A DNA stretch of 64,000 nt, from NCBI RefSeq assembly GCF_900106035.1, contig NZ_FNUC01000003.1, positions 1,178,001 through 1,242,000 of the forward strand, written 5' to 3'. Below, piece after piece: positions 9,820-59,171 of the stretch (within the stretch, counting starts at the first letter, position 1; each line of letters starts with the position of its first letter). The position numbers and the translations under genes are program-made. The notes beneath the pieces were generated by a model. It searched no databases, was not told the origin of the DNA, and worked only from the letters and a program-made list of their open reading frames with translations. This DNA is from Jiangella alba (GTDB lineage Bacteria; Actinomycetota; Actinomycetes; Jiangellales; Jiangellaceae).

Positions 9820-10011
9820 CGTCGGCGGGCTGACAACCGGGGTCTGTCTTCCGAGCCGTCACCCACCATGATCATCAACCTTTTGAGCCGCTCTGACGAC
9901 CAGGAAGGTGGATGAAAACCGGCCAACCGTTCGCCCCACATCGCCGATGACCGGCCCCGGCCGGACCGCTGTCCCCGCTCGTGCCGAGGCTGTACATGGA
10001 GGATCCCCGGG

Positions 10012-10989: not shown

Positions 10990-11873
10990 GTCGTGCTCCA
11001 GGACCGGGTGAGCCGGAAGTAGACGGCCGACAGTACCGCCAGGAACAGCGCCAGCAGCACCGACAGCGCCGTCGCGGCGCCGTAGTCGCCGAACCGGAAC
11101 GCGTAGTTGTAGATCTGCAGCAGCACGGTCACGGTGGCGTTCTGGGGGCCGCCGTTCGTCATCAGGTACGGCTCGGTGAACACCTGGAACGTGGCGATGA
11201 CCTGCAGGATCAACGTGATCAGCAGCACGCCGCGCAGCTGCGGCAGGGTGACGTGCCAGATCTTGCGCCACAGCCCCGCGCCGTCGACCTCGGCCGCGTC
11301 GTACAGGTCGCCGCGCACCCCCGTCAGCGCGGCCAAATAGATGAGCACCGTCGCACCGGCGTTGGCCCACGTCGCCTGCAGCACCAGCGACGGCATCGCC
11401 GTCGACGCGTCCTGGATCCAGGCGAACGGGCCGAGCCCGATCCAGCCCAGCATGGTGTTGAAGACACCGGTCTGGCTGGCGTCGTAGAAGAACCGCCACA
11501 GCAGCACCGCCACCACCGGCGGCACCACGACCGGCAGGTACGCCAGCGCGCTGTAGACGCCCCTGCCGCGGTGCAGCTCGCTCATGACGACCGCCAGCAC
11601 CAGCGGCACCGGGTAGCCGAACAGCAGCGCCAGCCCGGTGAAGAAGAACGTGTTGCGCACCGACGTCCAGAACAGCGGATCGTCGAGGACGTGCCGGAAG
11701 TTGTCCAGGCCGACCCACGCCGGGTCGGCGACCAGATTGGTCTCCTGGAAGCTCATCACCACGGCGCGGCTGATGGGGAACCAGGCGAAGTAGCCGAACA
11801 CCAGCAGCAACGGCAGCAGGAGCAGCAGCGTGCTCAGCCCGCCGCCGCGGACCCAGCGGACGGTCGCGCTCAC
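10986..11873 (-). CDS. Carbohydrate ABC transporter permease (MalF type)
   Basis: A 295-residue permease with six predicted helices and the EAA loop YDAAEVDGAGLWRKIW. It pairs with the MalG-type protein to form the membrane channel of a di- or oligosaccharide importer. The GTG start at 11873 leads directly into a short basic segment and helix 1 (LLLLLPLLLVFGYFAW). It lies 28 bases after the binding-protein gene and belongs to the same leftward operon. Confidence 0.92.
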   Translation of the reverse strand: MSATVRWVRGGGLSTLLLLLPLLLVFGYFAWFPISRAVVMSFQETNLVADPAWVGLDNFRHVLDDPLFWTSVRNTFFFTGLALLFGYPVPLVLAVVMSELHRGRGVYSALAYLPVVVPPVVAVLLWRFFYDASQTGVFNTMLGWIGLGPFAWIQDASTAMPSLVLQATWANAGATVLIYLAALTGVRGDLYDAAEVDGAGLWRKIWHVTLPQLRGVLLITLILQVIATFQVFTEPYLMTNGGPQNATVTVLLQIYNYAFRFGDYGAATALSVLLALFLAVLSAVYFRLTRSWSTT

Positions 11874-42572: not shown

Positions 42573-43073
42573 ATGAGGCCGGTCATCGAGAAGGACATCC
42601 GCCGCAGCTTCGTCAACTGCTCCAAGGGCGAGGCGCAGCGGCTGAACCTCCCTCGCGACCTCGCCGACCAGCCGTGGGACGACCTCGACTTCCTCGGCTG
42701 GCGCGACCCCGGCGCGCCCGACCGCGCCTACATCGTCACCGAACGCGACGACGGCGGACTGCTCGGCGTCACGCTGCGGGCGAACCCGAAGTCCGGCCGC
42801 GGCTTCACGCACAGCAGCATGTGCTCGCTCTGCATGACGGCACACACCGGCGGAGGCGTGTCGCTGATGACCGCCCGCCGCGCCGGCGAGGCCGGCCGCC
42901 AGGGCAACAGCGTCGGCCAGTACCTCTGCGCCGACCTCGCCTGCTCCCTCTACGTCCGCGGCCGCAAGCAGGCCATCGTCGGCGTCCAGCCGTTCGAGAC
43001 CAGCCCGGTCGAGGAGAAGATCGCCCGCGCCCGCCGCAACCTCGCCACCTTCGTCGACTCCGTGCTCAGGTAG
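42573..43073 (+). CDS. FBP domain zinc-finger protein (EF-G-binding, FusB-like)
   Basis: A 166-residue protein with the treble-clef zinc finger found at the C-terminus of FusB/FusC and related elongation factor G-binding proteins. The four ligands are in CSLCMTAH and CADLACSLYV. FusB-type proteins free EF-G from the ribosome and some protect from fusidic acid; actinobacterial homologues are common housekeeping genes and need not give resistance. ATG 42573 has a leaderless promoter. The stop overlaps that of the amidohydrolase by 8 bases. Confidence 0.82.
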   Translation: MRPVIEKDIRRSFVNCSKGEAQRLNLPRDLADQPWDDLDFLGWRDPGAPDRAYIVTERDDGGLLGVTLRANPKSGRGFTHSSMCSLCMTAHTGGGVSLMTARRAGEAGRQGNSVGQYLCADLACSLYVRGRKQAIVGVQPFETSPVEEKIARARRNLATFVDSVLR

Positions 43074-44109
43074 CCGGCAGGTCCAGCAACCGCTGCGCGT
43101 TCCGGAAGTACAGCTTCTCCAGGACGTCGTCGGGCAGGTCGAGGCCGCGGATCGTCGCCTCGGACTGGAACGGGAACGGGTTGCCGATCCCGTCCAGGCC
43201 GGTCTCGTAGAAGGCCAGGTTCCGTGCGTAGAAGGCCCGGGTGAGGTCGGGGTACTCGCCGGGCAGCGGCTGGTCCAGCCAGCCGGCCATGCGCGCGTAG
43301 TCGCTGCCGAAGAGCACCCGGTCGGCGAAGTCGCACAGCAGTGTCCGGGCCGCTGCCGGCTCCTGGGCGAGGTCGAGGACGCGCGCCGACGTCTCCAGCC
43401 AGAGGTTCGGATACCGCCGCATCATCCGGTGCAGGCGGTCGAACGGGATGAAGCAGCCGCCGTGCAGCGCGACGAAGTCCGTCGCCGGATGCGCCGACAC
43501 CAGCCGCTCGAACTCGTCGTGCAGCGTCTCCAGGCTGGGGAACTCCTCGCCGGCGAAGGACCAGTCGGGTCGTTCCAGCAGCTCGGTGTAGCGCGGGTTG
43601 TCCGGCGCGACGGGCTGGAAGAACGGTTCCGGGTCGGCGATGTGGATGCCGGCCGGACGCCGGTGCCGCGCGGCGCACTCCCACATCGGCGCCAGCCGCT
43701 CGTCGTCGACGGCGACCCGGTCGCCGTGCGCGTCGGTGAGCCAGAGGCCCAGCTGCTTCCAGATCTTGAGGCCGCGGGCGCCCAGCTCGAAGGCGTGCTG
43801 GACGTCGGCGGCGAGGTCCCGCTCGAAGCCGGGGGAACCGATGCCCGAGAGGTCGGGGGCGTGGAAGAGGACCATCCCGGCGACCGTGCGGTCTCCGCTC
43901 CAGCCGGCCCGCCACTCCTCGAACGGCTGCGGCGGCCAGGCTCCGACGAGGTTGACCAGCCCGCCGAGGCCCGCGGCCCGCACGGCGGCGACGGCCGCGT
44001 CACGGGCGCCGACGGAGAAGTGCGTGTGGACGTCGACGATCCGGCCGTGGAAGCGGGACCGGTAGCCGTCGTGCGGCCCGGCCGCGGCGCGAGCGAGCCG
44101 GCCGGTCAT
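43066..44109 (-). CDS. Amidohydrolase family 2 protein
   Basis: A 347-residue TIM-barrel metal hydrolase or decarboxylase of the amidohydrolase 2 family. VDVHTHF (about 25-31) gives the first metal pair, VALHGG a further histidine and LFGSDY the catalytic aspartate. There is no signal peptide. It is downstream of, and overlaps in ATGA with, the aminotransferase gene, so both are read together away from the importer operon. The substrate is unknown; acting on a lactone, carboxylate or imine of the imported compound would fit the locus. Confidence 0.88.
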   Translation of the reverse strand: MTGRLARAAAGPHDGYRSRFHGRIVDVHTHFSVGARDAAVAAVRAAGLGGLVNLVGAWPPQPFEEWRAGWSGDRTVAGMVLFHAPDLSGIGSPGFERDLAADVQHAFELGARGLKIWKQLGLWLTDAHGDRVAVDDERLAPMWECAARHRRPAGIHIADPEPFFQPVAPDNPRYTELLERPDWSFAGEEFPSLETLHDEFERLVSAHPATDFVALHGGCFIPFDRLHRMMRRYPNLWLETSARVLDLAQEPAAARTLLCDFADRVLFGSDYARMAGWLDQPLPGEYPDLTRAFYARNLAFYETGLDGIGNPFPFQSEATIRGLDLPDDVLEKLYFRNAQRLLDLPAT

Positions 44110-45404
44110 GCGGCGAGCCGCCGCAGCGCGCCGGTGTTGGCCTGGATCTTCGCGAAGGCGTGCGCCAGGTCGGTGGTGAGGTCCTCGTTCTCCTCGACGT
44201 AGTTCCACGGGATCTCGATCGACGCGGCCACCTTCGCCCGCATGCCGGGGAGGTCCGCCGCCGTCGCGTCGTATCCGGAGCGCCGGATGGCGCCGGTCCA
44301 CATCACCTTCGGCCCGGCGTACGACGGGCTCAGCCGCGGCGACTCGTTGAGGCCGCGGGCCACGTACGAGACCGCCGGGACGCCCTCGGCCTGGAGCACC
44401 CGCAGGATCGCGTCGCGCCACTCGGGGACGCGGACGTTGATCGTCACCATGTGGTAGACGGGCGAGTCGTCGGCCGGATGGGCCGGCATCGCGAACAGGT
44501 CGAGGCCGTCGATCTTCTTCCGCAGCGCCTCGGCGTTGGCGCGCCGGTTCGCGTTGAGCTCGTCGACGTGCGGCAGTTGGTCCAGCGCCAGGATCAGTGA
44601 GGCGAGGTTGGGCCGGTAGGTGTAGACGAGCGTGTCGACGAGGTCGCGCAAGTCGTCGGGGAAGCCCGGTTCGCTGGCGCGCCCGATCAGCTCGCCTCGC
44701 CCGGCGTGCTGGGCGCTGATGGTCGGCGTCCAGTAGACGGATTCGTGGCGGGTGACCAGATAGCCGCCCTCGGTCGTCGCCAGCGGCTTGACGCCGTTGA
44801 TCGAGAAGCCGGCGGCGTCGCCGAGCGAGCCCAGGCGCCGGCCGCGGTGGCGGGCGCCGTGCGCCTGGCTGCCGTCCTCGATCACGGCCAGGTCGTGGCG
44901 GCCGGCGAAGTCGAGGATCGCCGTCATGTCGCTGACCTGCCCGTACAGGTGCGGCACCAGGACGGCGCGGGTGTGCGGCGTCAGGGCCGGCTCCAGGCCG
45001 TCCGGGTCGATGAGGCCGGTCTCGGCGCTCACGTCGCAGAAGACCGGGACCGCGCCGTTGTGGAGGATGCACGACACCGACGCGCCCCAGGAGTACGGCG
45101 ACGTGATGACGTGGTCGCCGTCGGCGATCTCCAGCCCGATCAGCGCGGACTGCAGCGCGCCGTGCCCGGAGCTCGCGCTCAGGCAGTGCGGCACCTCGTG
45201 GAATTCGGCCAGTGCCCGCTCGAACTCTCCGACGACCGGATGGTGCTTGGAGAGCCCTTGGGTCGGCCCGGTGCTGATCACCTGGACCAGTCGCTCCAGG
45301 ATCGCCGCCGAGAAGCGCGGATACCGAGGGGGTTCGTGTCCGAAGGCGGCCGTGCCGCCCTCGATCGCCAGTTCCATCGTCACGTCGGCCAGCGTACGGA
45401 GCAT
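44106..45404 (-). CDS. DegT/DnrJ/EryC1/StrS family aminotransferase
   Basis: A 432-residue PLP enzyme of the sugar aminotransferase family. SASSGHGALQSALIG binds the cofactor phosphate, VIEDGSQAHGA holds the aspartate that pairs with the ring nitrogen, and GFSINGVKPLATTEGG the PLP lysine (K206). This family normally transaminates keto sugars in antibiotic or cell-wall synthesis; here it lies in an import and catabolism locus, where it might remove an amino group. ATG 45404 is 10 bases from the perfect palindrome; a second ATG at 45377 would also work. Confidence 0.88.
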   Translation of the reverse strand: MLRTLADVTMELAIEGGTAAFGHEPPRYPRFSAAILERLVQVISTGPTQGLSKHHPVVGEFERALAEFHEVPHCLSASSGHGALQSALIGLEIADGDHVITSPYSWGASVSCILHNGAVPVFCDVSAETGLIDPDGLEPALTPHTRAVLVPHLYGQVSDMTAILDFAGRHDLAVIEDGSQAHGARHRGRRLGSLGDAAGFSINGVKPLATTEGGYLVTRHESVYWTPTISAQHAGRGELIGRASEPGFPDDLRDLVDTLVYTYRPNLASLILALDQLPHVDELNANRRANAEALRKKIDGLDLFAMPAHPADDSPVYHMVTINVRVPEWRDAILRVLQAEGVPAVSYVARGLNESPRLSPSYAGPKVMWTGAIRRSGYDATAADLPGMRAKVAASIEIPWNYVEENEDLTTDLAHAFAKIQANTGALRRLAA

Positions 45405-45414
45405 GAACAGGATC

Positions 45415-45430
45415 GGTCAACCGGTTGACC
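45415..45430. promoter_or_regulatory. FadR/GntR-type operator in the divergent promoter
   Basis: GGTCAACCGGTTGACC is a perfect 16-bp palindrome between the aminotransferase and permease genes. A closely similar sequence precedes the GntR gene at 53341. It is ideally placed to control both arms of the locus. Confidence 0.7.
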
Positions 45431-45538
45431 AATTCTTGTCGGAACCCTAGGGTGCCGCCTACGACGACATCCACCGCGGCTGCCACGGCGCCGTCCCGGC
45501 TCCCGCGCCCGGCACTCCATGACCCGAGAGGGACACCC

Positions 45539-46597
45539 TTGATCCGAGCGTTCATCGAGCGTCGCTCCGACCCAGGCACCGAGCACGCGCCCGCACCACC
45601 GGGCGACGGCCGGCAGGCCGCCTCCGCGCGGCTGCTGCTGGCGGTGATCCGCCTGGGCCCGACGCTGCTGCTGGCGATCCTCGCGGTGGTCTTCACCGTG
45701 GCCTCGCCGTACTTCCTGACCTCCGGCAACCTGCAGAACCTCGGCGCGCAGAGCTCGATCGTGATGGCTCTCGCGCTCGGCCAGCTGATCGTCGTGCTCA
45801 TCAGGGGCATCGACATCTCGGTCGGCTCGGTCATCGGGTTCTCGGTGGTGTTCGCCGCCGTCGTCGGCGGCACCGGCAACGGCTGGCAGTTCCTCCTGCT
45901 CGCACTGCTCGGCGGGGCGCTGATCGGGACCATCAACGGCGCCGTGATCGTGTGGGGCCGGCTGCCGCAGCCGTTCATCGTCACGCTGGCCACGCTCGGC
46001 GCGGCAGCCGGAGCGGCGCAGCTGCTCACCGACGGCACCGCCGTCGTCGGCCTGCCGGACCTGATCACGACGATCGGCGGCGGCGAACTCGGCCCGGTGC
46101 CGACGCCGGTGCTGCTCGTCGGCGTCCTCGGGTTGCTGCTCTGGTACGTCACGACCCGGACGCAGTGGGGCCGGTGGCTCTACGCGCTGGGCGGCAACCC
46201 GGAGGGCGCCACGCGGATGGGCTTGCCGGTCGGCCGCATCACGATGGCGGCGTTCGTCATCTCCGGGGTCACCGCAGCGTGCGCCGGGATCATCGCCGCC
46301 GGACGTACCAACACCGCGACCCCGCTGGCCGGGACGGGCGCCGAGCTGGACTCGATCATCGCCGTCGTCATCGGCGACGCGAGCCTCTTCGGAGGCCGCG
46401 GGACCGTCGTGAACGTACTGGTCGGAGCCCTGATCCTCGGCACCATCCGCAACGGCCTGGACCTGCTCGGCGTGAGCCCCTACATGCAGCAGGTCGCCGT
46501 CGGCGTGATCGTGCTCGCCGCGCTCGAGCTCGACGTGATCCGCCGGCGGCTGGAGGAACGGGTGAAGCGGCTGACCGCGCTGGAGGTGGAACGATGA
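45539..46597 (+). CDS. Ribose-type ABC transporter permease
   Basis: A 352-residue permease of the RbsC/BPD_transp_2 family with about 8-10 helices. RGIDISVGSVIGFS and GGNPEGATRMGLPVGR are family hallmarks. It forms the channel of a monosaccharide-type importer as a homodimer. The TTG at 45539 is taken as the start because GAGAGGGA lies about 5 bases upstream; the frame is open further upstream to 45425 but that stretch is proline/threonine-rich and overlaps the promoter. It starts a seven-gene operon without gaps. Confidence 0.88.
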   Translation: MIRAFIERRSDPGTEHAPAPPGDGRQAASARLLLAVIRLGPTLLLAILAVVFTVASPYFLTSGNLQNLGAQSSIVMALALGQLIVVLIRGIDISVGSVIGFSVVFAAVVGGTGNGWQFLLLALLGGALIGTINGAVIVWGRLPQPFIVTLATLGAAAGAAQLLTDGTAVVGLPDLITTIGGGELGPVPTPVLLVGVLGLLLWYVTTRTQWGRWLYALGGNPEGATRMGLPVGRITMAAFVISGVTAACAGIIAAGRTNTATPLAGTGAELDSIIAVVIGDASLFGGRGTVVNVLVGALILGTIRNGLDLLGVSPYMQQVAVGVIVLAALELDVIRRRLEERVKRLTALEVER

Positions 46598-47385
46598 GCC
46601 CGGCGACGACCACCACGCCGCTGCTGCAGATCGCCGGCGCGTACAAGACGTTCGGCCACGTCACCGCTCTGAACGGCGTCGACTTCCAGCTGCACCAGGG
46701 CGAGATCGTCGCGCTGCTGGGCGACAACGGGGCCGGGAAGTCGACCCTGGTCAAGGTCATCGCCGGCGTGCACCAACTGGACGCGGGCGAGCTGCGCCTC
46801 GACGGCGAGGCGGTGCACTTCCGCAGCCCCGCGGACTCGCGCGGCGCCGGGATCGAGACCGTCTACCAGGACCTCGCGGTCTTCGACAACCTCGACGTCC
46901 TCGCCAACATGTTCATGGGCCGCGAGCACCGCACGCCGCGTTGGCTCGGGCCGCTGGGCTACCTGCGCAACCGTCAGATGCTCGCGGCCTGGAAGGCGGC
47001 GTCGGCCGAGCTCAAGGTCACCATCCCCGACCCGCGCCAGCCGATCGGCCTGATGTCCGGCGGCCAGCGGCAGGCGGTGGCGGTGGCCCGGGCGGCGGCG
47101 TTCGCCAGCCGGGTCGTCGTGCTGGACGAGCCCACCGCGGCGCTCGGCATCCGGGAGAGCCGGCAGGTGATCGAGCTGGTGCGGTCGCTGCCGGAGCGAG
47201 GGATGTCGGTCGTCCTGATCTCCCACAACATGGAGCACGTCCTCCAGATCGCCGACCGGGCCACCGTCCTGCGGCAGGGCCGGGTCGTCGGGAACGCGGT
47301 CGCCAGCAAGGAGAACGAGCACCGGCTCGTCTCGATGATCGTCGGATCGCCGCACCACCAATTCGACCAGGAAGGGCACCCATGA
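46594..47385 (+). CDS. Sugar ABC transporter ATP-binding protein, single domain
   Basis: A 263-residue ATPase with one nucleotide-binding domain. LLGDNGAGKSTL is Walker A, LMSGGQRQAVAVARA the signature, and VVVLDEPTAALG Walker B. Most ribose-type importers use a double-domain ATPase; the single-domain form occurs in the FrcA-like subgroup and would act as a homodimer. It overlaps the permease stop in ATGA. Confidence 0.92.
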   Translation: MSPATTTTPLLQIAGAYKTFGHVTALNGVDFQLHQGEIVALLGDNGAGKSTLVKVIAGVHQLDAGELRLDGEAVHFRSPADSRGAGIETVYQDLAVFDNLDVLANMFMGREHRTPRWLGPLGYLRNRQMLAAWKAASAELKVTIPDPRQPIGLMSGGQRQAVAVARAAAFASRVVVLDEPTAALGIRESRQVIELVRSLPERGMSVVLISHNMEHVLQIADRATVLRQGRVVGNAVASKENEHRLVSMIVGSPHHQFDQEGHP

Positions 47386-48395
47386 ACCAGTTGACGAGGA
47401 CCGCAACGGCGGTCGTCTGCGCCTGTGCCGTGGCCGGCGGCCTGGCCGCGTGTTCCGCGCGCGGTGAGGCCGCGACGGACGCCGAGATCAAGGTCATGTA
47501 CCTGCTGCCGACGCTCAACGACGAGGCGTACAGCCGCGAGGCGGCCGGCGCGCGCGCCGAGGCCGACCGGCTGGGCGTCGAGGTCGACGTTCAGGCCGGC
47601 CCACAGCGGCGCGACCCGTCGCCGATCATCGCGAAGGTCGAGGACGCGATCACCCAGCAGTTCGACGTCATCGTGGTCGACCCCGGCGAGTACGCGGCGC
47701 AGTTGTCGCCCGTCCTGAACAAGGCCGAGGAGGCCGGGATCGACGTGATCTCGATGATCCAGGAGATCCCCGACCTCGAGCCGACGGTGCACATCGCCTA
47801 CGACGAGTCCGCCGGCTACCGCGCCGCGGGGGAGTACATGGGCGAGCTGCTGCCCGAGGGCGGCGAGCTGGGCGTCATCGGCTGCGGGATCGGCAACGCC
47901 CAGATGGACGGGCGCCGCTCCGCGTTCGCGGACGGGTTGCCGGCGAACATCACCCAGGTCCAGATCGGCGAGACCCAGTGCGACCCGACCAAGGCGCGCA
48001 AGCTCACCGAGAACATGCTGACCGCCCATCCGGAGCTGGCCGGCATCTTCAGCGACACCGACATCGCGCTGCTCGGCGGCATCGAGGCGCTGCGCGCCGC
48101 AGGCGCGGACCTGGCGGTGATCGGCGGCGACGGGCAGACGGCCAACCTGGAGCTGATCTCGAACGGCGAGATCCAGGACGCCAGCACCAGCTATCCGAGC
48201 GAGATCTTCGGCGCGACGGCGATCCAGGTGGCCAGCCGGCTCGCGGCCGACGAGGACGTCGCCGCCCTCTGCGAGATCCCCTCGCAGCCGCTGATCACCG
48301 AGGACACCGCCGCACAGGTGCTGGCGCTGATCGAGGAGATCGACGCCGGCAGCGCGCAACCCGAAGTGCCCGACTGCACGGAGAACCATGACTGA
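47382..48395 (+). CDS. Sugar-type ABC substrate-binding lipoprotein
   Basis: A 337-residue periplasmic-binding protein 1-like lipoprotein (RbsB class). The lipobox LAAC is at about residue 24; the ligand fold follows (VMYLLPTLNDEAYSREAAG, VIVVDPGEY, GGDGQTANLELI). The pocket residues do not match any sugar I can name. The C-terminus has two cysteines (ALCEIP and PDCTEN) that may form a disulfide. It overlaps the ATPase stop in ATGA and the next gene by 8 bases. Confidence 0.9.
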   Translation: MNQLTRTATAVVCACAVAGGLAACSARGEAATDAEIKVMYLLPTLNDEAYSREAAGARAEADRLGVEVDVQAGPQRRDPSPIIAKVEDAITQQFDVIVVDPGEYAAQLSPVLNKAEEAGIDVISMIQEIPDLEPTVHIAYDESAGYRAAGEYMGELLPEGGELGVIGCGIGNAQMDGRRSAFADGLPANITQVQIGETQCDPTKARKLTENMLTAHPELAGIFSDTDIALLGGIEALRAAGADLAVIGGDGQTANLELISNGEIQDASTSYPSEIFGATAIQVASRLAADEDVAALCEIPSQPLITEDTAAQVLALIEEIDAGSAQPEVPDCTENHD

Positions 48396-49584
48396 CCGAT
48401 CGTCGCACCGTCCACCAGGAGGTCAGGTGTCCGCACCGTTCGCGGCCGAGCGACTCGACGAGCTGCTGCAGGAGGCCGGGGTCGACGTCGTCCTCGCGAC
48501 CACGCGGCACAACGTCCAGTACCTGCTCGGCGGCTACCGCTACTTCTTCTTCGCCGGTATGGACGCCATCGGGGTCAGCCGCTACCTGCCCGTCGTCGGG
48601 TACGTCGCGGGCCGGCCGGAGGACGCCTTCTACGTCGGCTGCGGCAACGAGGACTGGGGCACCGACGTGCAGCCGCTCTGGGTCGGCGAGATCCAGAACG
48701 TGAGCTGGTCCAGCCTCGACTCGGCCCGCGTGGCGGCCGCCGCGATCACCCGCCGCGGCGCCGCGACCGGGCGCATCGCGGTCGAGTACGCGTTCATCCC
48801 GGCCGACGCCCTGGACGAACTGCGGCGCGAGCTGCCGGACGCCGAGTTCGTCGACGCGCACCCGATCCTGGAGTCGCTGCGCGGGCGGAAGTCCGCCGCG
48901 GAGCTGGCGCTGGTCCGGACGGCGTCGGAGGGGATCATCGACTCGATGCTGGCCACCTTCGCCACGGTCCGCCCGGGCCTCACCAGGCACCAGATCGTCG
49001 AGGAGTTCCGCCGCCAGCAGACCAGCCGCGGGCTGGTCTTCGACTACTGCCTGATCGCCACCGGCCCGAGCCTCAACCGGGCACCGTCGCAGGAGCCGTG
49101 GCGCCCCGGCACCGTGCTCTCGCTCGACAGCGGCGGCATGTTCGACGGCTACATCGGCGACCTCGCCCGGATGGCCGTCCACGGGGAGCCGACCGACCGC
49201 ATGGTCGAGCTGATGGCCGAGATCGAGCACGTCCAGCAGCAGGTCCGGACCGTGGTCCGGGCCGGCAGCCCGGGCTCGGCGATCTACGAGATCGCGGCCG
49301 ACCTGGTGGCCGCCAGCCCATACGCCGCGACCATGACGTTCCTGGCGCACGGCATGGGCCTGATCACCCACGAGGTGCCGCGGCTGACGGCGACCGGCCC
49401 GGTGCCCTACCCGGCCGACCACGCGCACACCCCGCTGGCCGAGGGCAACGTGCTGTCCATCGAGACCTGGATCGAGGACCCGGTGGTCGGCTTCGTGAAG
49501 CTGGAGGACACCCTCATCGTGACGGCGGACGGGTACGAGGCGCCCGGGGACATCGGCCGCGGCTACACGGTCGTCCATGACTAG
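48388..49584 (+). CDS. M24 family metallopeptidase (Xaa-Pro dipeptidase/creatinase fold)
   Basis: A 398-residue pita-bread-fold protein. All five metal ligands are present: D247 (SLDSGG), D258 (YIGDLAR), H321 (LAHGMGLITHE), E359 (SIETWI) and E373 (KLEDTLIV). It should therefore be a true metal hydrolase (prolidase or DMSP lyase DddP-like) and not creatinase, which lacks the metals. Its place between importer and kinase suggests it cleaves an amide or ester bond in the imported compound. DddP (a lyase of this fold) is an alternative and cannot be excluded. The ATG overlaps the previous stop by 8 bases. Confidence 0.85.
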   Translation: MTDRSSHRPPGGQVSAPFAAERLDELLQEAGVDVVLATTRHNVQYLLGGYRYFFFAGMDAIGVSRYLPVVGYVAGRPEDAFYVGCGNEDWGTDVQPLWVGEIQNVSWSSLDSARVAAAAITRRGAATGRIAVEYAFIPADALDELRRELPDAEFVDAHPILESLRGRKSAAELALVRTASEGIIDSMLATFATVRPGLTRHQIVEEFRRQQTSRGLVFDYCLIATGPSLNRAPSQEPWRPGTVLSLDSGGMFDGYIGDLARMAVHGEPTDRMVELMAEIEHVQQQVRTVVRAGSPGSAIYEIAADLVAASPYAATMTFLAHGMGLITHEVPRLTATGPVPYPADHAHTPLAEGNVLSIETWIEDPVVGFVKLEDTLIVTADGYEAPGDIGRGYTVVHD

Positions 49585-50992
49585 CCCGGCGGTGACGCTC
49601 GCCGAGCTGGACCGGCCGCCCACCGCACGGCGCGAGGCGGACGACCTGGCCGCCGTGCGGGCCGCCGCCGCGCGGCGGCGCACCTGGACCGTCGTGATCG
49701 ACGACGACCCCACCGGCACCCAGTGCGTCCGCGACGTGCCGGTCGTCATGGGGGAGTGGACCGCCGGCGACCTCGCCTGGGCGGCGCGGGGGCATGACCT
49801 CGCCTTCGTGCTGACGAACAGCCGGGCGCTGCCCGCGTCCGAGGCGAGCCGGGTGACGTCGCACGCGGCGGCGGCGGCCGGCCGGGCCGGCGAGCGGCTC
49901 GGCCGGCCGGTGCGGTACGTGAGCCGGAGCGACTCGACCCTGCGCGGGCACGTGCGGGAGGAGGTGGCGGCCGTCCGGGCGGCGGCCGGCTCGCCGCAAC
50001 GGCAGCGGGTCGTCTTCGCGCCGGCCTTCGTCGAGGCCGGCCGGGTCACCGCCCGCGGTGTGCAGTGGGTCGGCGACGGTGTGTTCGTCCCGGCTGCCGC
50101 CACCGAATACGCCGCGGACCCGGCGTTCGGCTACGACGACGTGGACCTCGCCGCTTGGGTGCGTGCCCGGCTGCGCGACGACGTCGCCCGTGTGCGGGTG
50201 CTCGATCTGGCGCTGCTACGCGGCGGTTCCGGCCCCGAGCTGGTCCGCGACGAGCTGCGTCGCGGACACCACGACGACGTCTGGATCGCCGAGGCGGTGA
50301 CCGGCGGCGACCTCGCCGCGCTGGCGGCCGGCTGTGCGCTGGCCGAGGACGACGGCCTGCGTGTCGTCTACCGGACCGGCCCCACGGCGGTCCGGGCGCT
50401 CGCCGGGCGGCCGCTGCCCGAGCCGTGGCCGGGCCGCGACGGACCGGCGGCCAGCGGGCTGGTCGTCGTCGGAAGCCACACCGGGCTCACCAACGTCCAG
50501 GTGGACGAGCTGCGGCGGAGCCGGCCGGTGTCGCTCGTCGAGCTCGACGCCAGGGTGGTCGCCGCCGTCGACGAGGCGGCGCGGGAAGCCGAGATCGGGC
50601 GGGCGGCCGCCGCCGTCCGGGCCGCCGTGCCGTCGGTCACGACGGTGCTGCGGACGTCCCGGCAGGTCGTCGCCGGCGCGGACCCGATCACCACCAGCGG
50701 GCGGGTGGCCGCCGCCCTCACCGAGACGGTACGCCGGATCGCCGAGACGACGGAGCTGGGCTTCCTCGTAGCCAAGGGCGGCATCACCTCGCACGACGTC
50801 CCCGCGCGGGCACTCGGCGCGACCCGGGCCGTCGTCCTCGGCCAGCTGTTCCCCGGGATGGTGCCGGTGTGGCGGCTGCTCGACGGCTCCCGGCCGGAGC
50901 TGCCCTACGTCGTGTTCCCCGGCAACGTCGGCGACCGCACCAGCCTCGCGGTCACCGTCACCCGGCTCGCAGAAGGAGACCGCAGTGCCTGA
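49577..50992 (+). CDS. Four-carbon acid sugar kinase-like protein (OtnK/DUF1537 family)
   Basis: A 471-residue two-domain kinase of the family that phosphorylates D-threonate, D-erythronate or related acid sugars. VIDDDPTGTQ (about 38-48) and SRSDSTLRGH belong to the N-terminal sugar-binding domain. FLVAKGGITSHDV and VFPGNVGD are the C-terminal ATP-binding motifs. The usual partner, a PdxA2-type dehydrogenase, is absent. Instead an HpcH/HpaI aldolase and an SDR follow. ATG 49577 overlaps the M24 stop (ATGACTAG). Confidence 0.85.
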   Translation: MTSPAVTLAELDRPPTARREADDLAAVRAAAARRRTWTVVIDDDPTGTQCVRDVPVVMGEWTAGDLAWAARGHDLAFVLTNSRALPASEASRVTSHAAAAAGRAGERLGRPVRYVSRSDSTLRGHVREEVAAVRAAAGSPQRQRVVFAPAFVEAGRVTARGVQWVGDGVFVPAAATEYAADPAFGYDDVDLAAWVRARLRDDVARVRVLDLALLRGGSGPELVRDELRRGHHDDVWIAEAVTGGDLAALAAGCALAEDDGLRVVYRTGPTAVRALAGRPLPEPWPGRDGPAASGLVVVGSHTGLTNVQVDELRRSRPVSLVELDARVVAAVDEAAREAEIGRAAAAVRAAVPSVTTVLRTSRQVVAGADPITTSGRVAAALTETVRRIAETTELGFLVAKGGITSHDVPARALGATRAVVLGQLFPGMVPVWRLLDGSRPELPYVVFPGNVGDRTSLAVTVTRLAEGDRSA

Positions 50993-51800
50993 TCCGAACC
51001 GCAGCCGTTCGCTCGCGGACCGCCTCCGGGACCGCGACCCGGTGCTCGGGCTGATCGTCAAGATGCCCAACCCCGCGCTGGTCGAGCAGGCCCGGTACCT
51101 CGGGTTCGACCTGGTGGTGATCGACACCGAGCACGGGGCCGGCGACGATCTGCTGCTCGAGCACCACCTGCGCGCCGCCGGCAGCGCCGGCATCGACGCG
51201 CTGGTCAGGGTCGGGTCGAACTCACCGCTCGACATCCTCCGGGCGCTCGACGCCGGGGCCGCCGGGGTGATCGTCCCGCACGTCGCCGACGCCGCGGGGG
51301 CGGGCGAGGCGGTCGCCAGCGCCCACTACCCGCCGCGCGGCCGACGTGGGCTCGCGGTGAGCACCCGGGGCGGACGGTACGGCGACGAGCCGATCGACGA
51401 GTACCTCGCCCGGGTCGCCGCGCAGACCGTCGTCGTCGTGCAGGTCGAGGACGAGGCCGGGGTGCGCAACGCGGCCGAGATGGTCGCGACCCCCGGCGTC
51501 AACGGCGTCTGGGTGGGGCCGGGCGACCTGTCCGCGTCGCTCGGCTTCCCCGGGCAGGGCGACCACCCGCGGGTCCGCGCCGCCGTCGAACAGGTCGTCG
51601 GCGAGGTCGTCCGCAGCGAGCGGACCGCCGCGGCGGTGCTGGTCAAGTCCGCACACGAGATCAAGGAATGGCACGCTCTGGGTGCGTCGGTGTTCCTCAT
51701 CACCTCGATCGACCTGTTCGGCCGGGCCGCCCGTGAGCTCGTGGCGGCGGCCGGGGCGCTGGACGGCGCCCGTCACGACGTCAAGGAGGCAGCACAGTGA
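50985..51800 (+). CDS. HpcH/HpaI family aldolase
   Basis: A 271-residue class II aldolase that by family splits 2-keto-3-hydroxy acids into pyruvate and an aldehyde, with a divalent metal. VVIDTEHGAGDD, VQVEDEAGVRNA (metal-binding glutamate and aspartate) and WVGPGDLSASLG are conserved. The GTG start has AGAAGGAGA just upstream and overlaps the kinase stop. It fits a step late in acid-sugar breakdown, feeding pyruvate to central metabolism. Confidence 0.9.
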   Translation: MPDPNRSRSLADRLRDRDPVLGLIVKMPNPALVEQARYLGFDLVVIDTEHGAGDDLLLEHHLRAAGSAGIDALVRVGSNSPLDILRALDAGAAGVIVPHVADAAGAGEAVASAHYPPRGRRGLAVSTRGGRYGDEPIDEYLARVAAQTVVVVQVEDEAGVRNAAEMVATPGVNGVWVGPGDLSASLGFPGQGDHPRVRAAVEQVVGEVVRSERTAAAVLVKSAHEIKEWHALGASVFLITSIDLFGRAARELVAAAGALDGARHDVKEAAQ

Positions 51801-52579
51801 GCACGAGCGGGATCCTCGGCCGGTTCGACCTCACCGGACGCACCGCGTTGATCACCGGCGCCGGCATGGGCATCGGGCGGGCGTTCGCGCACGCCCTCGG
51901 CGAGGCCGGCGCGAACGTCGCGGTGATCGATCTGGACCTGCGACGTGCCGAGCAGGTGGTTGCCGGGCTCGGCGAGAGCGGGGTCGCCGCGCTCGCCGTC
52001 GGCGCCGACGCGTCCGACCCCGAGCAGATCGACGCCTTCGTCGCCCAGGTCGTCGCGCACTTCGGCCGGCTCGACATCGCCGTCAACAACGCCGGGATCA
52101 ACCTCAACTCGGCGGCGGAGGAGACCACGCTGGACGAGTGGGACCGCGTCTTCGCGGTGAACACCCGGGGCGTGTTCCTCGCCTGCCAGGCCGAGGCACG
52201 GGCGATGTTCCCGCACGGCTACGGCAAGATCGTCAACACCGCGTCGATGGCCTCGCTGATCGTCCCGCACCCGCAGAAGCAGGTCTCGTACAACGCGTCC
52301 AAGGGCGCCGTGGTCACCCTCACGCGCACGCTGGCCGCCGAGTGGGCGCCGCGCGGCATCCGGGTGAACTGCATGTCGCCGGGGATCATCCGGACCGCGC
52401 TGATCGAGCAGTCGCCCGACCTCGCCCCGCTCGTCGACGAGTGGGTGCGCTCCATCCCGGCGGGCCGGCTGGGCGAGGTCGAGGACCTCCAGGGCGGCAT
52501 CGTGTACCTCGCCAGCCCGGCGTCGGACTACATGACCGGCCACAACCTGGTGATCGAGGGCGGCCAGACCCTCTGGTGA
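51797..52579 (+). CDS. SDR family oxidoreductase of the catabolic operon
   Basis: A 260-residue short-chain dehydrogenase. TGAGMGIG (about 20-27), NNAGIN, the catalytic serine in NTASMAS and YNASKG are all present. NAD(P)-dependent oxidation of a hydroxyl in the imported acid-sugar-like compound is likely. It starts with a GTG that overlaps the aldolase stop (GTGA) and ends 3 bases before the convergent GntR gene. Confidence 0.9.
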   Translation: MSTSGILGRFDLTGRTALITGAGMGIGRAFAHALGEAGANVAVIDLDLRRAEQVVAGLGESGVAALAVGADASDPEQIDAFVAQVVAHFGRLDIAVNNAGINLNSAAEETTLDEWDRVFAVNTRGVFLACQAEARAMFPHGYGKIVNTASMASLIVPHPQKQVSYNASKGAVVTLTRTLAAEWAPRGIRVNCMSPGIIRTALIEQSPDLAPLVDEWVRSIPAGRLGEVEDLQGGIVYLASPASDYMTGHNLVIEGGQTLW

Positions 52580-52582
52580 CGC

Positions 52583-53326
52583 TCAGCCCTCGACGGCGCG
52601 CTGCTCGGCGGCCGGCAGCGACAGCCGCAGCCGCCGGGTCGCGCGGTCCATGAGCGCCTGCATGGCCGCACGTGCCCGCTCCTCGTCCTGCTCGACGACG
52701 GCCTCGAGGACGGGCACGTGCATGGCCAGCGACGACTCCGTCTCCTGCGCCGACTCGATGACCCGGTGCGCCCACGCCTCGATCAGCGACCGGATGTTGC
52801 TCAGCACGCCCGTCAGCACCTCGTTGCCCGACGCCGCGGCCAGCTCCAGATGGAACTCCACGTCGGCCTCGATGTACCGGTCGTAGTCGTGGCTGGCCGC
52901 CCGCATCTCCTCGACCAGCTGCGTCAGCCGGGCCGCGGCCGCCGCGCTGCGGTTGCGCGCCGCCTGCGGCGCCAACGTCACCTCGAGCAGCTGGCGGGCC
53001 TCGATGAGGTCGGTGAGCTGGTTGTTCCCGAGCAGCACCCCCCACTCGATGACCTTCGGCAGCAGGCTCGACGGCTCCTTCGCCAGATACGTGCCGTCGC
53101 CCTGGCGCTGCTCCAGCACGCCGAGCAGGATGAGCGACTTGATGGCCTCACGCAGCGCCGCGCGGCCCACCCCCAGCGCCTCGCTGAGCGCACGCTCACC
53201 CGGAAGCCGCTGCCCCGGCGTCACGTCGCCGGACGCGAGATACGTCAGCAGCTCCCGCGTCAGCTCGACCGTCGCCGGTTCGCGCCGGCGCAGCGGCCGG
53301 TCGGGCAGTGGTGCAAGCTCGCCCAT
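52583..53326 (-). CDS. GntR family regulator, FadR/FCD subfamily
   Basis: A 247-residue repressor. The winged helix is at about 15-85 (LPGERALSEALGVGRAALREAI) and the all-helical FCD sensor domain at about 95-235, with the DRYIEADVEFHLELAAASGN segment supplying metal/ligand residues. FCD regulators commonly bind organic acids. The near-palindrome just upstream (53341) resembles the perfect one at 45415, so it probably represses both itself and the divergent catabolic genes. Confidence 0.9.
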   Translation of the reverse strand: MGELAPLPDRPLRRREPATVELTRELLTYLASGDVTPGQRLPGERALSEALGVGRAALREAIKSLILLGVLEQRQGDGTYLAKEPSSLLPKVIEWGVLLGNNQLTDLIEARQLLEVTLAPQAARNRSAAAAARLTQLVEEMRAASHDYDRYIEADVEFHLELAAASGNEVLTGVLSNIRSLIEAWAHRVIESAQETESSLAMHVPVLEAVVEQDEERARAAMQALMDRATRRLRLSLPAAEQRAVEG

Positions 53327-53356: not shown

Positions 53357-53699
53357 CCTCGACCATCCTAACGTCAGGGCCCGATCATGGCCGTCGCGGC
53401 GCCCAGGATCTCACCCGATCGATGGTGTGCCGGCGCGACGATCGGCGCGGGGTGGCCGATGGCGACGGGCGCAGGCTGGTGGATCGCCGGGGATCCGGCC
53501 GAGGTAGCGCTGCCGACCAGGTGGCCGAGGCGCCCGACGCGGTGCGGGACGGCATCCAACGGGTCGTCGACGCCGACAAGCTGGACTGCCTGTTCCAGGC
53601 CATCGAGTACCGCGAGCAGGGCAAACAGAACACCCAGCAGTTCGTCGACAGCATGACGGCCGCGTTGACGACGACGTCGGCGCGTCCGTGTGGGTGCGC
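53357..53699. other. Gap with an unrecognised, possibly decayed coding fragment
   Basis: The gap between the GntR promoter and the tRNA holds no clear gene. On the plus strand a stretch from about 53500 to 53690 reads in one frame as protein-like sequence (DAVRDGIQRVVDADKLDCLF, then QAIEYREQGKQNTQQFVDSM), but it has no start with a ribosome site and its frame runs into the tRNA. The upstream half has poor protein character. It may be the remnant of a gene broken beside the tRNA. Confidence 0.35.
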
Positions 53700-53776
53700 T
53701 GGTAGGGCGGGTGGGACTCGAACCCACGACCCAGGGATTATGAGTCCCCTGCTCTAACCGGCTGAGCTACCGCCCC
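53700..53776 (-). tRNA. tRNA with CAU anticodon (tRNA-Ile2 or elongator tRNA-Met)
   Basis: A complete cloverleaf of 77 bases including an encoded CCA. The acceptor stem is GGGGCGG/CCGCCCT (with G1-U72), the D arm is GCTC..GAGC, the anticodon arm is GGGGA-CTCATAA-TCCCT, and the T arm is GTGGG-TTCGAGT-CCCAC. Anticodon CAU with this anticodon arm is close to the bacterial isoleucine tRNA that is modified to lysidine by TilS, but an elongator methionine tRNA cannot be excluded by eye. Not an initiator: no CCC/GGG-type initiator stem. Confidence 0.9.
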
Positions 53777-55903: not shown

Positions 55904-58900
55904 CTAGTGGTGACCGGCGTGCTCCAGCGCCTCCTCGATCGACGGCTCGGCGGGCTCGGCCGTGGCCGGCGCCTTGGCCGCCTCGACCGGCTCGGCCGGG
56001 GGCGGCGTCCTGCCGACGTCCGACGCAGCCGCGGTGCGGGTCAGCATGCCCCGCTCCCGCCCGGTGATGACGCCGTCGGTGACCAGCTGGTTCGCGACCT
56101 CGGTGACGTGCCGGACGAACTGGCCGTGGTTCGGCCATTCGCCCTCGTCGTCGATGAGGTCGTTGATGGTGCAGCCGTCACCGCGGTCGACGTTGGCCAC
56201 GAGCGAGTCGAGGCTGCCGATGACCACCGTCGGGCGGGTGTCGGAGTCCGGGCAGGCGTCGCCGTCACGCTCGACGACGGTGAACGTCACCGATCCGGTC
56301 TCCGACTCGTTGCCCGCGTTGTCCGTCGCCCGGTACTGGACGGTGTGCTCGCCGACCGACGAGACGACGACCGGCCCGGTGTACGGGACGAACGCGCCGT
56401 CGTCGAGCGAGTAGACGACCGACGCGACGCCGGACTGGGTGTCCGTCGCGGTGACGGTCACGGTCGCGGAGTCGACGTAGGCGCCGTCGGGGTTCTGGTC
56501 GCCCGACACCACGCCGGAGACCGACGGCGGCGTCGTGTCGTCCGGCTCGGGCTCGACGACGGTGAATGTCACGGACTGCACGGGCGCGACGTTGCCCGCG
56601 TTGTCCGTGGCCCGGTACCGCACCGTGTGGTCGCCGACGGCCGAGACGACGACCGGCGCCGTGTAGGCGGTGAAGCCCGCGCCGTCGAGGTCGTACTCGA
56701 TCGACGCGACGCCGGACTGCGCGTCCGACGCGGTGACGGTCACCGTCGCGGACGCGATGTAGTCGCCGTCCGGGTTCTGCGAACCCGTCACGGCGGCCGA
56801 CGTCTGCGGCGGGGTGGTGTCGTCCGGCTCCGGCTCGACGACGGTGAACGCCACCGACTCGACCGGCGAGGTGTTGCCGGCGTTGTCGGTCGCCCGGTAC
56901 TGCACGACGTGGTCGCCGACGGCCGAGACCACGACCGGCGCTGTGTACGGCTGGAACGAGCCGCCGTCCAGGGCGTACGCGATGGACGCGACGCCCGACT
57001 CGGCGTCGGTCGCCGTGATGGTCACGGTCGCCGACCCGACGTACTCGCCGTCGGGGTTCTGGTCGCCGGCCACCGCCGCGGACACGTCCGGCGGGGTGGT
57101 GTCGTCCGGCTCCGGCTCGACGACGGTGAACGACACCGACTGCACGGGCGCGACGTTGCCGGCGTTGTCCGTGGCCCGGTACTGCACAGTGTGGTCGCCG
57201 AGCGCGCTGACGACCAGCGGCGTCGTGTAGGCGGTGAAGCCGGCGCCGTCCAGGTTGTACTCGATCGACGCGACGCCGGACTGCGCGTCCGACGCGGTGA
57301 TCGTCACCGTGGCCGACCCCACGTAGTCGCCGTCGGCGTTCTGGTCACCGGTGACGGTGGCCGACGTCTGCGGCGGGGTGGTGTCGTCGGGCTCCGGCTC
57401 GACGACGGTGAACGTGACCGACTCGACCGGCGAGGTGTTGCCGGCGTTGTCCGTGGCCCGGTACTGCACGGTGTGGTCGCCGACGGCCGAGACCACGACC
57501 GGTGCCGTGTAGGGCTGGAACGAGCCGCCGTCCAAGGCGTACGCGATGGACGCGACGCCCGACTCGGCGTCGGTCGCCGTGATCGTCACGGTCGCCGACG
57601 ACACGTAGTCGCCCTGGTCGTTCTGCTCGCCGGTGACGGCCGCCGCGACCTCCGGCGGGGTGGTGTCGTCGGGCTCCGGCTCGACGACGGTGAACTGGAC
57701 GGCCTCGACCGGCGCGACGTTGCCCGCGTTGTCCGTCGCCCGGTACTGCACCGTGTGGGCGCCGATGGACGACACCACGACGGGCGCGGTGTAGGGCGCG
57801 AACGCGGCGCCGTTGAGGCTGTACTCCACCGACGCGACGCCGGACTGCGCGTCCGTCGCCGTCACCGTGACCGTCGCGGACCCGACGTAGTCGCCGTCGG
57901 CGTTCTGGTCGCCGGTGACCGTCGCCGAGATGTCCGGCGGGGTGGTGTCGTCGGGCTCCGGCTCGACGACGGTGAACGGCACCGACTCGACCGGCGCGAC
58001 GTTGCCGGCGTTGTCCGTCGCCCGGTACTGCAGCGTGTGCGCGCCGATCGCCGTCACCTGCACGGGTGCCGCGTACGCCTGCCAGCCGCCGTTGTCGAGG
58101 TTGTACTCGACCGACGCTACGCCGGACTCCGCGTCCGTCGCCGTCACCGTGACCGTCGCCGACCCGATGTAGTTGCCCTGGTCGTCCTGTTCGCCGGCGA
58201 CCGCTGCCGAGATGTCCGGTGGCGTGGTGTCCTCCGGCTCCGGCTCGACGACGCGGAACTGCACCGAGCCGTCCGGTGAGGTGTTGCCGGCGTTGTCCGT
58301 GGCCCGGTACTGCACCGCGTGGTCGCCGATCTCGGAGACGGTGACGGGCCCGGTGTACGGCTTGAACCCGGTGTCGTCGATCTCGTACTCGATGGTGTCG
58401 ACGCCCGACCCGGCGTCGGTCGCGTTCACCGTCACCGTGGCCGAGCCGACGTAGTCGCCGTCGGCGTTCTGGTCGCCGGTGACCGTCGCCGTCACCTCCG
58501 GCGGCGTGGTGTCCTCCCCGCCGCCGGTGACGACCAGCAGGCCGGTCATCTGGCCGTGGCCGGGGAACGCGCAGTAGAACTTGTACACGCCCGGCGTGAG
58601 GTTGACCTCGACCTCGTACCGGCCGCCGTTCGGGTCGAACGGGTTCGCCGTGAGGTTGACGTCGACGTCCTGGTTGTACTGCGGGTCGCCGGTCTCGAAC
58701 GTCAGCGTGTGCGGCATGCCGCTGGTGTTGCCGGTGGCCGTGCTGTTCTCGAAGACGATCGTGGTCGGACCGGCGACCGCGGAGGTCGGGGCCGACCGGT
58801 ACGCCGTCACGCTGTTGTCGGCGGTCCAGGTCAGGGTCTGCGCCGCCGCCGTCTCGGCGTTGCCGGAGACGGACGACGCCGGCGCGGGCGCCGGCGCGCC

Positions 58901-59053
58901 GCGCAGGGCGGCCGCGGCCGGCACCAGGCCGACCGCCATGAGGGCCATGGTCAGCACCGCGACGACGACGCCCTGGGGCGTCACCCGCCGGCGGCCGGCC
59001 CGGCCCGTCGAGGGATGGCGGCCGGTGAGGTCCGCCCAGAGTCGTTGAAGCAT
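55904..59053 (-). CDS. Secreted cupredoxin with eight Ig-like repeats and a shared C-terminal module
   Basis: A 1049-residue exported protein. A long signal peptide (membrane segment VVVAVLTMALMAVGLV) is followed by a plastocyanin-like copper domain (about 70-176) with all four type 1 copper ligands: H115 (MPHTLTF), C161 (FYCAF), H166 and M169 (PGHGQM). Eight repeats of about 94 residues follow (181-930), each starting DTTPP and containing YRATDNAGN, of the OmpL47/bacterial Ig-like type. Residues about 934-1014 form a module with GCTINDLIDDE and WPNHGQFVRHV that also occurs in the neighbouring protein. The end is low-complexity, finishing EHAGHH. No cell-wall sorting signal is seen. It probably carries electrons at the cell surface. 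Confidence 0.88.
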   Translation of the reverse strand: MLQRLWADLTGRHPSTGRAGRRRVTPQGVVVAVLTMALMAVGLVPAAAALRGAPAPAPASSVSGNAETAAAQTLTWTADNSVTAYRSAPTSAVAGPTTIVFENSTATGNTSGMPHTLTFETGDPQYNQDVDVNLTANPFDPNGGRYEVEVNLTPGVYKFYCAFPGHGQMTGLLVVTGGGEDTTPPEVTATVTGDQNADGDYVGSATVTVNATDAGSGVDTIEYEIDDTGFKPYTGPVTVSEIGDHAVQYRATDNAGNTSPDGSVQFRVVEPEPEDTTPPDISAAVAGEQDDQGNYIGSATVTVTATDAESGVASVEYNLDNGGWQAYAAPVQVTAIGAHTLQYRATDNAGNVAPVESVPFTVVEPEPDDTTPPDISATVTGDQNADGDYVGSATVTVTATDAQSGVASVEYSLNGAAFAPYTAPVVVSSIGAHTVQYRATDNAGNVAPVEAVQFTVVEPEPDDTTPPEVAAAVTGEQNDQGDYVSSATVTITATDAESGVASIAYALDGGSFQPYTAPVVVSAVGDHTVQYRATDNAGNTSPVESVTFTVVEPEPDDTTPPQTSATVTGDQNADGDYVGSATVTITASDAQSGVASIEYNLDGAGFTAYTTPLVVSALGDHTVQYRATDNAGNVAPVQSVSFTVVEPEPDDTTPPDVSAAVAGDQNPDGEYVGSATVTITATDAESGVASIAYALDGGSFQPYTAPVVVSAVGDHVVQYRATDNAGNTSPVESVAFTVVEPEPDDTTPPQTSAAVTGSQNPDGDYIASATVTVTASDAQSGVASIEYDLDGAGFTAYTAPVVVSAVGDHTVRYRATDNAGNVAPVQSVTFTVVEPEPDDTTPPSVSGVVSGDQNPDGAYVDSATVTVTATDTQSGVASVVYSLDDGAFVPYTGPVVVSSVGEHTVQYRATDNAGNESETGSVTFTVVERDGDACPDSDTRPTVVIGSLDSLVANVDRGDGCTINDLIDDEGEWPNHGQFVRHVTEVANQLVTDGVITGRERGMLTRTAAASDVGRTPPPAEPVEAAKAPATAEPAEPSIEEALEHAGHH
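56270..58512 (-). repeat. Eight tandem 282-bp coding repeats
   Basis: A 282-base unit (94 codons) occurs eight times within the cupredoxin gene, with the GACGACGGTGAA region recurring at regular 282-base steps. Units alternate in two slightly different types (ATDAESGVASIAYALDGG versus ASDAQSGVASIEYNLDGA), suggesting duplication of a two-unit block. Confidence 0.88.
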
Positions 59054-59171
59054 GAAGTGCCGCACCTCTTTCGTGAATCCGCGAGACGCCGTGCGTCCCG
59101 GCGGCCGAGGCCCGCCGGAACGGGCGCGACCCGGGGGGTGAGGTCGCGCCCGTCCAGCCGGCCGCCGGGTC

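Follow-up and report, generated by a model that had tools for sequence, protein, structure and literature searches.

A conserved catabolic locus of Jiangella alba with a FadR-type regulator and a candidate role in degrading amino-bearing polyhydroxylated compounds

A set of ten adjoining genes in the actinobacterium Jiangella alba places a sugar-type importer beside an aminotransferase, a kinase, an aldolase and putative hydrolases, which raises the question of what compound such a locus would take up and degrade. The genes span positions 43066-53326 of a 64,000-nucleotide stretch of contig NZ_FNUC01000003.1 (hereafter the window), for which a preliminary description had proposed the uptake of an amide or amino derivative of an aldonic acid. 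The answer that we favour, with somewhat better than even confidence, is that the locus is a FadR-repressed catabolic unit of two modules that acts on an amino-bearing polyhydroxylated compound. The locus itself is real, conserved and coordinately placed, and the outline first proposed, in which a compound is imported, deaminated, oxidised, phosphorylated and split by an aldolase, is likely; the amide cleavage that had formed part of that outline was not upheld.

All positions and families originally assigned to the ten genes were correct, each family exceeding its own gathering score in a Pfam profile search. On the minus strand, genes for a 347-aa protein of the Amidohydrolase-2 family (AH; 43066-44109; PF04909, 55.6 bits against a cutoff of 26.4) and a 432-aa DegT/DnrJ/EryC1/StrS aminotransferase (DegT; 44106-45404; PF01041, 214.8 bits) are divergent from a plus-strand run that begins with an ATP-binding cassette (ABC) importer. 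This importer consists of an RbsC-like permease (45539-46597; PF02653, 109.8 bits), whose TTG start near 45539 was inferred from reading frame and spacing, a 263-aa single-domain RbsA-like ATPase (46594-47385; PF00005, 102.2 bits), and a sugar-type solute-binding protein (47382-48395; PF13407, 128.4 bits). There follow an M24 "pita-bread" metalloenzyme without the peptidase histidine (48388-49584; PF00557, 96.1 bits; PF01321, 40.0 bits), a DUF1537-type kinase (49577-50992; PF07005, 138.1 bits, cutoff 25; PF17042, 110.2 bits, cutoff 28.3), an HpcH/HpaI class II pyruvate-type aldolase (HpcH; 50985-51800; PF03328, 99.2 bits) and a short-chain dehydrogenase/reductase (SDR; 51797-52579; PF13561, 218.5 bits). 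The gene for a GntR/FCD (FadR-type) regulator (52583-53326, minus strand; GntR 53.1 bits, FCD 87.1 bits) is convergent with the SDR gene, 3 nt away. Gaps from the first gene to the last are -4, 134 (the divergent promoter), -4, -4, -8, -8, -8, -4 and +3 nt, with overlaps of 4-8 nt at the joints inside both operons, that between AH and DegT being an ATGA. The GC content of the locus is 0.728, against 0.731 for the window. Pfam matches and overlapping joints thus bear out the arrangement originally described, and the presence of importer, FadR-type regulator, kinase and aldolase in one conserved unit agrees with its designation as a catabolic locus.

The complete set occurs in five genomes of two classes, namely that of the window, two congeners, and two genomes (G1555 and G1585) from a second class of actinobacteria. 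Among 99 related genomes, 12 of which belong to the same genus, the kinase found a match at E 0.001 in ten and was 92-100% identical in three of the same-genus genomes (G000, G009 and G010), which are collinear over the ten genes plus an unrelated neighbour on the left, at 86-99% protein identity. In G1555 (L159 and L160) and G1585 (L161), all genes of the window locus are present at 37-73% identity, comprising DegT (61-64%), AH (41-45%), permease (53-55%), ATPase (61-65%), binding protein (37-38%), M24 (49-52%), kinase (45%), HpcH (47-48%), SDR (67-73%) and FadR (51-53%). The locus is rare, as few genomes gave matches in scans of class, phylum and family, even with genomes already known to hold it included in the counts: DegT was matched at E 1e-60 or better in 3/393 genomes of the class (again G000, G009 and G010), and M24 at E 1e-90 in 2/396 genomes of the phylum, 3/300 of the Dactylosporangium roseum family and 1/345 of the Streptomyces family. 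When the M24 protein of G641 was the query (E 1e-85), four of the 329 genomes of its class matched; besides G1555 and G1585, these were G641, which has only the core described below, and G1500, in which M24 lies among unrelated-looking genes. The G1555 copy may be mobile, since the set has a TrwC-type relaxase gene after it and conjugation-type genes, identified by eye, upstream. Between this copy and the relaxase gene are cyclase-like and glutamate-semialdehyde-aminomutase-like aminotransferase genes (L160:3425-6680 and 7687-11235) that suggest a mobile element. We recognised no paper describing the gene set by title or abstract opening among the open-access papers searched, and the set has apparently not been assigned previously.

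A core of M24, kinase, HpcH and FadR genes is found in five further genomes, four of which also have the SDR. In Dactylosporangium roseum (L041), Streptomyces endocoffeicus (L042) and Dactylosporangium sp. (L117), whose loci are among the 80 listed in the kinase scan described below, identities are 64-70% for M24, 40-45% for the kinase, 46-53% for HpcH and 60-65% for FadR, with an SDR of 70-74% in two; the others are G834 (L133, closely related to L117) and G641 (L134). Neither DegT nor AH was found in the stretches read of these five core loci, and DegT searches of three whole core genomes returned matches of 29-38% identity. The importers also vary, being, as judged by eye, Opp-type in L041 and L152 and of the major facilitator superfamily in L042, and a fused permease-ATPase in L117 and, by similarity, in L133. 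Four of the five loci carry a small SDR-like gene and a second SDR gene (SDR2), and in part also genes for VOC-fold, Gfo/Idh, xylose-isomerase-like, beta-lactamase-fold and, by eye, HSL-type hydrolase proteins. Because the core recurs with differing importers and upper genes, we set a shared lower module apart from exchangeable upper modules. The small SDR-like protein, of 148-166 residues, is encoded before an SDR gene at L042:3479-3931, L134:16134-16631, L117:13525-13974 and L151:15061-15507 and is possibly a non-catalytic partner subunit. One of three such proteins passes the SDR-like PF21777 cutoff, barely, and no plasmid match was found for the small protein at E 1e-3 or for SDR2 at E 1e-25.

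A palindrome, GGTCAACCGGTTGACC (45415-45430), lies in the DegT/permease promoter within a predicted FadR-type operator (45413-45432) and differs by one mismatch from the family consensus used for site counts, TTGGTCRACCGGTYGACCAA. It is the sole site with at most one mismatch in the 7.68-Mb genome, and is single in G009 and G010 as well. At the same tolerance, five other genomes contain one (G753), three (G834), one (G752) and no sites (G751 and G641); G753 and G834 each have one between the binding-protein and M24 operons, and the single site of G752 is off its locus. With the pattern reversed as a control, a single site was obtained, in G751. Consensus sites with up to three mismatches precede the core operons in seven of eight loci (window, L042, L153, L133, L134, L159 and L161), L117/L153 and L133 being close relatives. 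Across ten stretches there were 10 such sites, compared with 0-0.03 expected per stretch from first-order Markov sequences; nine occupy promoter-type gaps, and the tenth falls at the 3' end of the kinase gene in G1555, ahead of the gene for an FBA-type aldolase. Two M24-bearing proteobacterial loci (L035 and L136) had no sites with up to five mismatches. The regulator has a conserved DNA-binding region, and its best copy is 51-65% identical in the seven loci outside the genus; we infer that the FadR-type regulator binds the palindrome. As the palindrome stands in the DegT/permease promoter and similar sites precede core operons elsewhere, the DegT-amidohydrolase pair is probably part of the FadR regulon. 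That the aminotransferase belongs to the locus, as was first suggested, is supported both by this promoter site and by the recurrence of the same gene set in five genomes.

We next consider the individual proteins. DegT-fold enzymes with a catalytic lysine carry out aminotransfer, as opposed to the dehydration of the His type. Lys206 of DegT aligns with a lysine of 2-deoxy-scyllo-inosose aminotransferases that we take to be the pyridoxal-phosphate lysine, and because this residue is kept, aminotransfer rather than dehydration is likely. In AH, H156, D159, H216 and D270 are invariant across 10 aligned sequences, some of them partial, and the protein is predicted to be a lactone- or ring-hydrolysing enzyme; it had no sequence match in the PDB at E 0.001 and no further relatives in viral contigs, and a single-sequence structure model (pLDDT 37) was too poor for use. 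In the M24 protein, D247, D258, H321, H328, E359 and E373 are invariant in 13/13 aligned sequences and the di-metal ligands D, D, H, E and E are present, the last Glu, which falls outside the alignment to methionine aminopeptidase (MetAP), being identified as the invariant E373 of the 13-sequence alignment. The SDR has the expected Ser and YxxxK motif and is 67-74% identical in the six loci outside the genus where it was found. HpcH retains H50, R75, Q151, E153 and D179 of GarL in 7/7 homologues, and with these five catalytic positions kept, the enzyme probably catalyses a retro-aldol reaction of class II. In this it resembles the GarL/HpaI/RhmA aldolases, five of six checked GarL positions being conserved, but its scores of at most 150 bits are well below the corresponding NCBIfam cutoffs of 369-441.

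The importer was described as ribose-type, and the families of its permease, ATPase and binding protein agree with this; the ATPase is nevertheless single-domain, unlike the two-domain RbsA, and matches the NCBIfam YtfR model, 492 positions long, over positions 1-237. Ribose itself was rejected as the imported compound, as 12 of 14 RbsB contact residues are changed in the binding protein and two are kept. An aldonic acid, of which the substrate originally put forward would be a derivative, is possible.

Taken together, these features suggest the following route, in which all substrates and the order of steps are our reconstruction. The upper module, made up of the ABC importer, DegT and AH, would take up a polyhydroxylated compound bearing an amino group; DegT would remove this group by transamination to leave a ketone, and AH would open a ring or lactone. 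In the lower module, which is also found without the upper, the SDR would oxidise the product of the upper module, the M24 metalloenzyme would perform a hydrolytic or eliminating step rather than peptide cleavage, the DUF1537 kinase would phosphorylate, and HpcH would cleave the chain to a pyruvate-type fragment and an aldehyde or phosphotriose-type fragment. An FBA-type aldolase is added in some relatives: G1555 and G1585 encode a class II enzyme of this type between kinase and HpcH, and that of G1555 scores 231 bits against 216 for the broad NCBIfam ketose-bisphosphate-aldolase cutoff and passes no narrower one.

Several observations weigh against this route. The FBA aldolase of both distant full copies is missing from the window copy, and other FBA-like proteins of its genome are at most 43% identical to that of G1555. 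The position of GarL Ser124 is Ala in 7/7 HpcH homologues, including that of the window. For the core of D. roseum, the stretches read yielded no orthologue of the SDR, and no TTGGTCRACCGGTYGACCAA site turned up at three mismatches or fewer. The TTGGTCRACCGGTYGACCAA consensus was itself built from the same loci, which makes the site count partly circular and supporting rather than independent evidence, and sites with four or five mismatches exceed expectation away from promoters as well (six against 0.17 in L164), for which reason we did not use them.

Whether the compound could be an aminocyclitol is a question raised by the relatives of DegT. Aminocyclitol catabolism (C6 or C7N, for example of inosamine or a valienamine-like compound) would have DegT deaminate, AH and the non-peptidase M24 protein open or process the ring, and the kinase and HpcH finish the pathway, and would make the M24 step new chemistry for the pita-bread fold; we regard it as possible but rather unlikely. 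In its favour, the best-scoring solved matches of DegT include 2-deoxy-scyllo-inosose aminotransferases: the best are 5w70 (155 bits), 8gyh (134), 5w71 (132) and 2c7t (131), of which 5w70, 5w71 and 2c7t all bear that name, 5w71 and 2c7t apparently being one protein. Perosamine synthase, by comparison, reaches 128 bits in pairwise scoring. Two of the 2-deoxy-scyllo-inosose aminotransferases, RbmB (155 bits) and BtrR (131 bits), share the conserved lysine with DegT but are biosynthetic, whereas DegT sits in a catabolic unit. PMC6429434 describes conversion of valienone to beta-valienamine by BtrR, an enzyme of the 2-deoxy-scyllo-inosose aminotransferase type.

Other leads come from cyclase genes near two of the relatives. 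D. roseum has a gene whose product scores 414 bits to 4p53 (an entry named "Cyclase", presumably ValA) and whose plasmid relatives are annotated as sedoheptulose 7-phosphate cyclase; it overlaps the gene pair for the small protein and SDR2 and precedes genes for an inositol-dehydrogenase-like protein and an aldo-keto reductase. This stretch (L151:13877-18257), in which the valiolone-synthase-like cyclase, small SDR-like and SDR genes overlap and Gfo/Idh and aldo-keto reductase genes follow, resembles a so far unassigned cyclitol operon. It starts about 6 kb from the core, and four other genomes, of which two are closely related, have the small-SDR2 pair together with the core. A second cyclase-like gene, beyond the regulator in G1555, scores 148 bits to 4p53 and at most 103 to dehydroquinate synthases. 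When the ten locus genomes and seven congeners were searched with the D. roseum cyclase, a full match was found only in D. roseum (G751) and a moderate one in G1555, and the other 15 matched at the level of AroB. Cyclitol synthesis was therefore rejected as a general part of the unit. In eight of the ten locus genomes, that of the window included, cyclase matches do not rise above the level seen in the seven congeners, and the D. roseum cyclase stretch has no operator-like site at up to four mismatches, both of which count against an aminocyclitol. The myo-inositol (iol) pathway proceeds by dehydrogenation, a ring or hydrolytic step, a kinase and then an aldolase. The route proposed here follows the same logic of order, and some locus relatives possess inositol-dehydrogenase-like Gfo/Idh and FBA-type aldolase genes, but none of the ten window proteins falls by Pfam into the families of IolD, IolB, IolC and IolE. 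The leads to a cyclitol or aminocyclitol substrate are suggestive only.

The M24 protein was originally thought to cleave an amide, such that an N-acyl or amino-acid-conjugated aldonic acid would be imported, hydrolysed by M24, deaminated, oxidised, phosphorylated and cleaved by the aldolase. The M24 fold with its intact di-metal site and the probable place of DegT in the regulon are consistent with this, but we consider it improbable. The position of MetAP His79, the substrate-binding histidine of M24 peptidases, is replaced in all ten family members compared, including those of R. etli and Sagittula, by Asn in nine and Gly in one; the R. etli and window proteins share Asn-Arg at this place. 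The protein falls far under the NCBIfam cutoffs for prolidases and aminopeptidases and for the ectoine hydrolase DoeA (44.5 against 575 bits and 31.7 against 613); a structure model from four sequences had a mean pLDDT of 56, too poor for use. M24 is furthermore kept by the five core loci, where the stretches read showed no DegT or AH, and by rhizobial loci that carry Tm-1-like genes. Since M24 belongs to the core without DegT or AH nearby and lacks the peptidase His, we rejected amide hydrolysis, and with it deacylation, as the favoured reading. On rhizobial plasmids (L035:7440-11152, L037 and L135), conserved genes for Tm-1-like, PEP-hydrolase-family, cupin and M24 proteins lie beside a carbohydrate-type ABC importer. 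Their M24 is approximately 47-50% identical to that of the window, but unlike the window locus, the stretches read of L035, L037 and L135 contain no relatives of the DUF1537 kinase, HpcH or DegT; no paper on the function of this cluster was recognised in an open-access literature search.

We hold it equally doubtful that the locus is a variant of the threonate/erythronate pathways, with SDR and HpcH standing in for PdxA2 or LtnD and OtnC or DeoC, and with DegT and AH peripheral. Like the known DUF1537 acid-sugar pathways (OtnK, DtnK or DenK with LtnD or PdxA2, OtnC and OtnI), the locus combines a kinase, a dehydrogenase and a carbon-carbon lyase in a catabolic operon, and the only NCBIfam match of the kinase is to D-threonate kinase. 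The score is 81 bits, against an equivalog cutoff of 450, and tblastn with E. coli PdxA, YgbJ, YgbL and YgbM found no relative of PdxA, OtnC, LtnD or OtnI in the window better than E 0.17; SDR, HpcH, M24, DegT and AH are present instead. The absence of PdxA2 beside the kinase, which had been pointed out before, is therefore confirmed. As a distinguishing mark it fares less well. A scan of the genome collection with a kinase alignment kept 80 loci of at least 571 confirmed relatives, a set from which records close to the genome of the window may be missing, and these were searched by tblastn at E 1e-8 within 6 kb of the kinase, on contigs some of which were shorter. LtnD-like genes were near 43 of these 80 listed relatives, which speaks for an acid-sugar variant, FBA-like genes near 14, HpcH near seven, M24 near three and OtnI near two; PdxA, OtnC, DegT and AH were each near none. 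Among these relatives, then, a kinase without PdxA2 nearby is not unusual as such, but one combined with HpcH and M24 is; both this combination and the joint conservation of DegT and AH with the unit argue against a four-carbon acid-sugar pathway. A review (PMC10971088) reports DUF1537 kinases acting on D-threonate, D-erythronate and 4-hydroxy-L-threonine, and on that account an amino-bearing acid is also a possible substrate.

It is less probable still that the locus is partly biosynthetic, with DegT aminating an imported or salvaged ketone. The biosynthetic roles of the named close solved relatives of DegT and the sedoheptulose-phosphate-cyclase-like genes by two locus relatives are in keeping with such a role; against it, the unit includes an importer, a FadR-type regulator, a kinase and one or two aldolases, and the genome of the window has no cyclase beyond the AroB-level match. 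That the genes are unrelated neighbours and no functional unit is contradicted by conservation of the set across classes at 37-73% identity, together with overlapping genes and a palindrome common to the loci, and can practically be dismissed.

Two further features of the window lie beyond the locus. A tRNA-Met (53700-53776) begins approximately 370 bp past the regulator gene; integration of the locus as an island at this site was rejected, as G009 is collinear across the tRNA, collinearity with G010 ends at 53387, and no island boundary was shown. At 55904-59281 on the minus strand, a long open reading frame carries several tandem repeats that are similar to one another, each about 282 bp long, seen as off-diagonal matches and Ig-like in look; its product is perhaps a surface protein.

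If our favoured interpretation of a two-module, FadR-repressed catabolic unit is correct, the locus would represent an unassigned actinobacterial route by which nitrogen-bearing polyols are used as food. It would also provide a defined reaction context for three uncharacterised groups of enzymes, namely a branch of M24 proteins without the peptidase His, a catabolic branch of DegT, and a branch of AH with no PDB sequence match at E 0.001, and its layout with a single operator would simplify screening for the inducer. Should the substrate prove to be an aminocyclitol, the finding would bear on the turnover in soil of such antibiotic building blocks.

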